Shown here piece after piece: positions 14,071-15,308 of a DNA stretch of 34,402 nucleotides; within the stretch, counting starts at the first letter, position 1; every line of letters begins with the position of its first letter. Source of the stretch: Desulfobacterales bacterium (lineage in GTDB: Bacteria; Desulfobacterota; Desulfobacteria; Desulfobacterales; SpSt-501); the NCBI GenBank assembly GCA_030834695.1, contig JAUQXK010000075.1:1-34402 (forward strand), given 5' to 3'. The translations under genes and the position numbers were made by a program. The notes under the pieces are model-generated. The model saw nothing but the letters and a program-made list of their open reading frames with translations, did not search any database and was not told where the DNA came from.

Positions 14071-14182
14071 GCTCCCGTCTTTCGGGATGCAGCATACGTG
14101 ACCACCCGCAGGGAACCGTGCCGTATCCCTGAAGTATGGAAGCAGAACGGGATATGGCCGAACCGAATGAAGGAGGCCCACC

Positions 14183-14764
14183 ATGTCCGAAATCATCTGG
14201 GAAAAATCGCTTCAAAGCGCTTTGAAATCGGCCGAGAAAAGCCGCAGACCGATCTTTCAGGATTTTTGGTTCGATGGCTGACTGGGATGCAATGCGATGA
14301 ATACGGGTCCGTATTCGGAGGAAAAGGTCCGGCATTACATCGAAACCGAATTTGTTCCGGTAAAAAGTCAGTGCTTTTGGGACAAGCGCACGGATGCCAT
14401 GAAGCAGTTCGACATCGTATGGACACCTACGCTGATTGTGCACGACGCGACCGGCAAGGAGCATCACCGAGTGGTTGGTTTCGTCCCCACGGACGATTTT
14501 CTGGCGCACTTGAAACTCGGCAAGGGGAAAATGCATTTTAACCGCTTCCGCTTTGACGATGCCATCAAAGAGCTAACAGCGGTTGCGGAGCAGCACCCCG
14601 CTGCAGGGCCGGCCGCCGAGGCTGTTTTTTACCTTGGTGTTGCCAAATACTGGAAGAGCCATGACCCTAAAGGGCTGCGCTGGGCCTATGACGCGCTTGC
14701 CGCCCGCTTCCCCAACAGCGAATGGGCCCGAAGGGCTGAACCCTACAAGCAGATCTCTTCATAG
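14183..14764 (+). CDS. Selenocysteine-containing thioredoxin-like protein (UxxC), UGA at 14279-14281 read as Sec
   Basis: Reading from ATG 14183 (AGGAGG 6 bases upstream), 32 codons are followed by an in-frame TGA and then an uninterrupted frame to TAG 14762-14764: 193 residues with Sec33. The UGA falls exactly at the first catalytic position of a thioredoxin fold. PIFQDFWFDG precedes it and LGCNAM follows, giving U33-x-x-C36 where relatives have CxxC. The cis-proline is present in WTPTLIV (about Pro82). Residues about 120-190 form a TPR-like C-terminal region (FRFDDAIKELTAVAEQHP, then AVFYLGVAKY) that also occurs in Cys-containing homologues from Deltaproteobacteria. A hairpin with a GGTC loop sits 24 bases after the UGA. 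Gene callers that stop at UGA would start at 14297 and lose the active site. A plain nonsense mutation is the alternative. Confidence 0.88.
14299..14316 (+). promoter_or_regulatory. Putative bacterial SECIS element for the thioredoxin-like gene
   Basis: GAATACG (14299-14305) and CGTATTC (14310-14316) form a perfect 7-bp stem closed by the tetraloop GGTC (14306-14309). The loop begins 24 bases after the UGA, within the 16-37 base window described for bacterial SECIS elements. The loop has the G and U needed for SelB binding, like the GGUC loop of E. coli formate dehydrogenase mRNA. It lies within the coding sequence, as bacterial elements do. Confidence 0.82.
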
Positions 14765-14837: not shown

Positions 14838-15308
14838 TCACTGAGTCATTTCTTCGATCGAAAGCTCGTCGTGGATATTGATACACCCCATCACGCTTTG
14901 AGCCGCCGGGCATTTCACCAGATAGGAGGAGAAAGCCTCCTGCGCCTCTGCGGATCTGCCCGGCGGAACCTTCAAATGATATTTCACCCGGATATCCGTT
15001 ATCTTCAAAACGCCGTTCACATCCTTGATATCCCCTTCCACATCGGCTCGATAGCGCTCCTCGGGAGTTGGGATTTTCTTTCCTGACAGCGCCGCTGCCA
15101 GCGTGCCCATCATTCAACCGGCGGTTGCAGCCACGATATGATCCAGGGTCGCCGCGTGCTCCTTCTCCGGTTCGACCTTGTAGAAGCTCTTTATCCCCCC
15201 ATGGACGCCGTAAAAGACCGGCTCGTTGAACCCTTCGATCATGGCCCGGCGGGTAGGGCCTATTTCGCGAACGATCTTGATTCGAGATGTGTGAACAAGC
15301 GCTCCCAT
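14838..15308 (-). CDS. Selenocysteine-containing OsmC-like protein, UGA at 15114-15116 read as Sec
   Basis: From ATG 15308 (AGGAGG 7 bases upstream) 64 codons run to an in-frame TGA at 15116-15114. The same frame then continues 91 codons to TGA 14840-14838, giving 156 residues with Sec65. The UGA lies in HIVAATAG-U-MMGTLAAALSGKKI, exactly where OsmC/Ohr-fold proteins have the first catalytic Cys (pattern GGCxMGTL). The second conserved Cys is present in VKCPAAQSVMG. In the family this Cys pair reduces organic hydroperoxides; Sec at the attacking position should raise reactivity. A stable hairpin with a GGC loop follows the UGA at 20 bases. Selenoprotein OsmC-like proteins have been described before, which supports the reading. 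Downstream of the dioxygenase gene by 48 bases on the same strand, so probably co-transcribed. Confidence 0.9.
15083..15101 (-). promoter_or_regulatory. Putative bacterial SECIS element for the OsmC-like gene
   Basis: On the minus strand, CTGGCAGC (15101-15094) pairs with GCTGTCAG (15090-15083), with one G-U pair, around the 3-base loop GGC. The loop begins 20 bases after the UGA. Stem length (8 bp), loop size, loop-leading G and distance fit the published bacterial SECIS consensus. Confidence 0.75.

Follow-up and report, generated by a model that had tools for sequence, protein, structure and literature searches.

Thioredoxin-type selenoproteins with a U-x-x-C motif are already in print, and we therefore do not claim a new kind of protein for the gene described here. 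Two papers describe a 'Thiol:disulfide interchange protein' family of selenoproteins with the Pfam domain PF13098 and a UxxC motif (PMC13188914, PMC9312934), and a third reports such a selenoprotein in Syntrophus aciditrophicus and two Geobacter species (PMC1794560). That family, whose representative is WP_011366075.1, has the PF13098 domain and the UxxC motif in common with our gene product and is reported from delta-proteobacteria; our family may be the same one. Neither 'tpr' nor 'tetratricopeptide' occurs in the main text of PMC13188914, and tetratricopeptide goes unmentioned among the matches listed in the selenoprotein, thioredoxin, SECIS and SelB literature.

An in-frame UGA at the active site of a thioredoxin-fold gene

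The window, by which we mean the entire 34,402-nucleotide stretch of DNA that was analysed, carries a gene with the following features.

14170–14176, plus strand: ribosome-binding site AAGGAGG, seen in the sequence; the L018 copy, from another genome of the genus, has the same AAGGAGGCCCACCATG context
14183–14764, plus strand: recoded gene of 193 residues plus TAG, supported by frame, profiles and predicted model
14279–14281, plus strand: UGA that we read as selenocysteine (Sec), residue 33, first in a U-L-G-C active site; Cys (TGC) in the relatives L107 and L108
14288–14290, plus strand: TGC for Cys36, the predicted resolving cysteine, nearly invariant (at least 90% of 59 aligned rows)
14299–14316, plus strand: predicted SECIS apical hairpin of 7 bp with loop GGUC (14306–14309), supported by folding, a synonymous null, covariation and RNAalifold
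14420–14428, plus strand: codons for W80-T81-P82, of which T81-P82 does not vary across the 59 rows and W80 hardly does, placed before strand 83–87 in the model

The frame opens at the ATG at 14183, contains a single in-frame TGA and ends at a TAG (14762–14764). That a frame starting from a strong ribosome site would be interrupted once, by a UGA at the first catalytic position with the resolving Cys three residues further on, was the core of the original prediction, and the sequence agrees with it at each of these points. The prediction also held that conventional annotation would report a 155-residue protein starting at 14297 without an active site; such an ORF is indeed found (14297–14764, 155 aa), and residues 1–38 are missing from it. 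Genes of this kind, which number 99 in the searches described below, are likely to be annotated as truncated proteins that lack the active site. Comparison of the window copy with L018 indicated purifying selection both before the UGA (dN 0.013, dS 0.199, from four differences only) and after it (dN 0.036, dS 0.254).

We regard it as very probable that the UGA is read as Sec and that the gene encodes a true selenoprotein, with selenium presumably inserted at residue 33. The whole of our preferred explanation, in which SECIS-directed Sec decoding yields a UxxC oxidoreductase with a TPR-like module, we hold at a probability of roughly 0.87.

Fold and proposed role of the recoded protein

The recoded protein is predicted to combine a thioredoxin fold (residues 1 to about 121) with TPR-like helices (about 103 to 190). 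AlphaFold2, run with 59 rows, gave a model with a pLDDT of 97.5 and a pTM of 0.92, in which strand 24–29 is followed by Sec33, standing directly before helix 34–41, and then by the W-T-P turn, which we take to be the fold's cis-Pro loop, strand 83–87 and helices 103–190. Pfam assigned Thioredoxin_2 (PF13098) at 33.7 bits, over its gathering score of 27, alongside weak TPR matches; all 59 rows of the family alignment matched Thioredoxin_2 (E ≤ 0.001), and the same Pfam and NCBIfam models recurred among the 59 members with modest E-values. Thioredoxin proper was rejected, with both of its models below cut-off (TIGR01068, 27.0 versus 96.8 bits; PF00085, 15.4 versus 23.5 bits), as was DsbD (NF001419), which reached 42.9 versus 330 bits over residues 7–111 only. 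Within NCBIfam the window protein fell below the cut-off of every model; those for the bacterial selenoproteins TsoB and Trx_VPGUxxT matched weakly across the thioredoxin part but at scores far below their cut-offs (39.8 of 805 bits for TsoB, 25.6 of 275 bits for VPGUxxT type 2).

Profile comparison matched the first part of the protein to chains of DsbD-gamma and of disulphide isomerases. In a structure comparison the top ten rows were thioredoxin-like domains, DsbD and DsbH among them (Z 14.3–16.6, rmsd 2.1–3.4, 108–127 aligned). Among the closest solved folds was the gamma domain of DsbD, its C-terminal thioredoxin domain (2fwe; Z 14.6, rmsd 2.7, 113 aligned; profile E 1.5e-12), although the match is confined to the thioredoxin-like part. 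The tail matched the TPR domain of CpoB (6g5s) by profile at positions 113–184 (E 6.8e-11), but the thioredoxin part is absent from that match and the repeat is a common one. The gene had been described beforehand as encoding an unusual, thioredoxin-like protein with a TPR-like C-terminal extension. Its thioredoxin fold stands, although both profiles and structure comparisons place it nearer to Thioredoxin_2 and DsbD-gamma than to thioredoxin proper; the extension is present but is a feature of the whole family rather than a peculiarity of this gene.

A general role as a thiol-disulfide oxidoreductase seems likely. In the mechanism that we propose, SelA, SelB, SelC and SelD of this genome would decode UGA 14279–14281 as Sec, directed by the hairpin at 14299–14316. 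By analogy with UxxC and CxxC oxidoreductases, the Sec33 selenolate would attack a disulfide (or similar) bond, and Cys36 would then resolve the intermediate by forming a Se-S bond, after which the active site would be reset by a cellular reductant. The helical module probably binds a partner protein. The cytosolic location, the direction of the reaction and the substrate in this scheme are those that we infer; no signal peptide was seen by eye. Because no neighbour family recurred in more than four loci, among loci of at least 2000 bases, gene order offers no operon hint on the substrate.

Conservation of the UGA across the phylum

A search of 58 relatives found one copy, L018 (the same as L020), in another genome of the genus, a Desulfobacterales MAG; this copy is 94% identical and has one TGA. 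The search also found a distant copy, L021, at 27% identity and likewise with one TGA. Within the genus the gene was present in two of the seven genomes examined; the other five gave no one-TGA copy. When 389 genomes sampled for the class were searched with a profile built from the window copy, L018 and L021, there were 20 matches above 150 bits, every one with one TGA (the row for G033 also counts a TAA, which is its terminal stop); the genomes among the matches listed all came from the same order or genus, with 189 genomes that gave no match standing outside that list. A second profile, of 19 rows, was run on 395 genomes of the phylum with a match threshold of 110 bits and produced 91 matches, of which 80 (in 75 genomes) had one TGA and 11 had no stop. 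The two samples partly overlap, and the window's own copy, the sole match that they share, was counted once; pooled, they hold 110 members of the family, of which 99 have one TGA and 11 are stop-free. The TGA encoded the first residue of the U-x-x-C motif in all 76 of the one-TGA members that were individually read (the other 23 of the 99 fall outside this set), at identities to the window protein as low as 27%. A phage collection searched for the gene gave zero matches, and a plasmid search gave two Leptospira records at 24.6%, which were left outside the counts.

The original prediction had looked for Cys at position 33 in most relatives. Cys homologues do exist, L107 and L108 among them, but they are few, and most relatives have UGA instead. 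Of the 11 stop-free members, nine belong to a single family (f126) and the other two are isolated cases, a scarcity to be read with the fact that the search profile was itself built from UGA forms. Nine of the 11 had TGC at the active-site position and two had no recognisable motif; C-x-x-C was kept in three of the nine TGC members (L107, L108 and L110). The codon count excludes matches below 110 bits, the duplicate loci L019, L020, L103 and L049, and L115 and L117 of f126, in which the active-site position was not recognised. Among individual loci, L072 has the TGA in a gene cut by a contig end and scored 81.5 bits, and L066 has a TGA in the class-sample listing yet TGC at the active site on reading.

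Family f126 (L109–L117) is a UGA-free branch in which L110 has CxxC, six copies have Ser at the second position and two are motif-less; it is perhaps non-redox. Shorter UGA copies (L120 and L121, of 159 and 158 residues) stand beside full-length copies in G689 and G759; both are counted in the 99 and cover profile positions 1–145 only.

On a tree of 85 members, the Sec/Cys label required three changes. The Cys member L107 paired with L119, a UGA member from its own genus (support 100/99), and both fell inside the window's eight-row clade (support 100/100). The genome that holds L107 (G666, 98% complete) had no match over cut-off to SelB or SelD, whereas its sister genome (G737), which holds L119, had both over cut-off; the contrast is the pattern expected upon loss of Sec by a lineage. 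L107, in which five of the seven hairpin pairs form, and L119 make a natural pair in which exchange of Sec for Cys goes with the absence of SelB and SelD and with two broken hairpin pairs. L108, with four of the seven pairs, is unsurely placed because it and L146 are long branches that meet in the tree. It has Cys while its genome, G403, has SelB, and so Sec is not obligatory in the family; with so few UGA-free forms, the family is a good setting in which to ask why Sec is retained.

A conserved hairpin behind the UGA

Published constraints for the bacterial SECIS, as given in section 5 of PMC13188914, are a distance of 16–37 nt and a loop with G first, and the window element fits them with 7 bp, a GGUC loop and 24 nt. 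Its letters are GAATACG-GGTC-CGTATTC. The 7-bp hairpin and its GGTC loop were as predicted, but the hairpin does not start 24 bases behind the UGA as had been stated: 24 nt is the distance from the UGA to the loop, and the stem lies at 17 nt.

Considered alone, the window hairpin gave a z-score of -1.24 for a 70-nt fold, with 28 of 200 dinucleotide shuffles as good, and all seven pairs formed in 239 of 20000 samples (about 1%) when the window peptide was synonymously recoded. Its energy was -7.7 kcal/mol for nt 19–40 from the UGA, while a separate evaluation of the hairpin by itself gave -7.1, and Rfam gave zero matches at gathering score on the window. Because the difference from shuffles was not significant for this one sequence, we used tests across the family.

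Starting at the UGA, a gap-free comparison by codons covered 76 TGA members, 75 of them distinct. The distinct members formed a mean of 6.33 of the seven pairs; 200 synonymous-codon resamplings, which kept the same peptides and drew on codon usage pooled from the flanking codons of these genes, gave a mean of 4.39 (sd 0.11, highest 4.75). Under the same resampling the mean hairpin energy was -2.8 kcal/mol, as against the observed -8.8. At least six pairs formed in 72 of the 75. From first to seventh, the pairs formed in 75, 75, 71, 72, 75, 74 and 33 sequences, the innermost (27–32) being absent in 42, and loop position 28, 24 nt behind the UGA, was G in every one of the 75.

Covariation, column letters and RNAalifold were analysed on 62 of the 75 distinct sequences, in 35 of which the seventh pair was absent. 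Two-sided changes occurred at five of the seven pairs, in 27 cells, whereas shuffles gave 5.4 and none of 500 reached the observed number; relatedness inflates such counts, and the compensated types nonetheless differ between subfamilies. Pair 22–37 was GC in 55 sequences and AU in 7, pair 23–36 AU in 43 and GC in 13, and pair 24–35 UA in 54 and AU in 4. When the partner strand was slid, paired cells dropped from 90.1% to 22–68%; a slide of -2 gave a higher covariation score (0.290 versus 0.253) with 24 versus 27 two-sided cells and 68.2% versus 90.1% paired cells. RNAalifold (-7.91 kcal/mol) predicted the other six pairs and not the seventh. Conservation of the hairpin among relatives goes far beyond chance.

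Selenocysteine machinery and a probable second UGA decoder

The window genome holds the Sec machinery that the original prediction presupposed. It has selA (615 bits), selB (375 bits), a canonical tRNA-Sec with the anticodon UCA, G73 and CCA (75 bits), and two copies of selD (379 and 363 bits), each over its curated cut-off.

G000:C65:4743-5663: first selD copy (L147), with one in-frame TGA
G000:C5:32516-33436: second selD copy, with one in-frame TGA

SelB was over cut-off in 353 of the 395 phylum genomes sampled, and being so common its presence discriminates little. Of the 75 phylum genomes with a one-TGA copy, 72 had SelB above its cut-off; the other three (G429, G664 and G719), one of them 67% and two 92% complete, were scored as lacking it from its absence among the matches listed, with G429 alone shown without a match. 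Among the nine genomes whose copies above 110 bits are all stop-free, five had SelB (Fisher p = 0.002, uncorrected for relatedness).

A further tRNA-Sec-like gene (L003/L153) lies on contig C11 (G000:C11:4806-4897), directly upstream of a second, SelB-like gene (selB*) inside which the contig ends. The tRNA has the anticodon UCA, an 8-bp acceptor stem, A1:U72, U73 and an encoded CCA, and together with the second SelB it fits the selC*/selB* type, whose cassettes with A1:U72 and UCA are described in Desulfobacterales in PMC7609411. Related cassettes were found at L149 (74% SelB identity) and L150 (50%), close copies of the tRNA (90–98%) in G002, G003 and G253, and matches of 76–86% in G393, G417, G487, G612 and G654. 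In the window organism this system could in principle insert Cys at UGA. Since Sec and selC*-type Cys systems that both fit UGA occur together in this genome, it offers a way to test how one of two SelB proteins is chosen.

Alternative readings of the UGA and of the protein

If the selC*-type tRNA-Cys working beside the second SelB served our UGA, residue 33 would be Cys, a reading for which the tRNA on C11, its position and the published cassettes all speak. Yet 17 of 24 UGA-form genomes gave no match to such a tRNA, in a test on 30 hand-picked genomes, several of them picked for two SelB matches, that a diverged tRNA could escape; the tRNA is thus not needed for this UGA in general. Among the genomes with no match, G451, G685, G538 and G737 share the window's hairpin letters across columns 21–38 (f98), and G005 (85% complete), with the 94% identical gene, is also without a tRNA match, while G002 and G003 have the tRNA and gave no UGA-form copy in the genus and class searches. 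We consider Cys decoding of this UGA very improbable. That the UGA is a true stop, marking a broken gene or a sequencing error from which at most a 155-residue fragment is made, can be practically dismissed: the conventional reading does yield an ORF from 14297, but one that lacks, in residues 1–38, the first strand and the active site, and purifying selection acts on either side of the UGA. The UGA is common to the second genome of the genus and to distant relatives, which also disposes of the assembly error that had been raised as a possible objection. Nor is UGA reassigned throughout, since TGA is the terminal stop of several further likely genes of the window, chosen by eye.

A chaperone-type thioredoxin (chaperedoxin) of the kind known from E. 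coli as YbbN/CnoX, whose TPR part would hold clients and whose Sec site would make mixed bonds with them, would be a special case of our preferred explanation and is compatible with Sec. A thioredoxin fold followed by TPR-like helices is common to both, and the best two Foldseek rows (prob 1.00) were 3qdn, a putative thioredoxin of Salmonella of 285 residues, and 3qou, E. coli YbbN, both presumably YbbN with TPR. However, they superpose poorly (TM 0.38 and 0.42 when scaled to the query length, with rmsd 11.5 and 11.9), the window protein has a much shorter tail and Sec at its active site, and neither entry stood among the 50 rows listed by the other structure comparison. We think this role unlikely for the protein.

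A neighbouring OsmC-like selenoprotein gene

A second gene with an in-frame UGA converges on the thioredoxin-like gene, and 73 bases separate the two stops.

14838–15308, minus strand: convergent gene for an OsmC-like selenoprotein of 156 residues, with UGA at 15116–15114 (residue 65)

Its conventional call is a 91-residue fragment (14838–15113, minus strand) that forms the end of the 156-residue frame, and an 8-bp hairpin lies behind its UGA. The two genes were adjacent only in the two genus genomes, among loci with flanks of up to about 1.5 kb (in 40 of the loci the flanks are some hundred bases). They co-occurred in 16 genomes, as against 7.0 expected (p = 0.0003, uncorrected for relatedness), and the OsmC-like protein is a possible redox partner of the thioredoxin-like protein. 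A more far-reaching picture, which we put forward as speculative and rather improbable, is that of an undescribed thioredoxin-TPR selenoprotein family, Sec-based in nearly all phylum members found, that either serves as a seleno-chaperedoxin or reduces the Sec-containing OsmC-like protein, in a genome that reads UGA both as Sec and, through selC*/SelB*, as Cys, with each SECIS choosing between two SelB proteins.

OsmC matches occurred in 37 of the 395 genomes. The 36 best matches, together with a 34% match in G413, each had one TGA, and the match in G574 is short and stops before the UGA position. A motif script placed the UGA at the same position in the window, in L018 and in nine of 11 further loci (L155–L163 of L155–L165). 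OsmC-like selenoproteins are known from PMC1088965, which gives their motif as UXXT; in the OsmC-like protein of the window it reads U-M-M-G-T.
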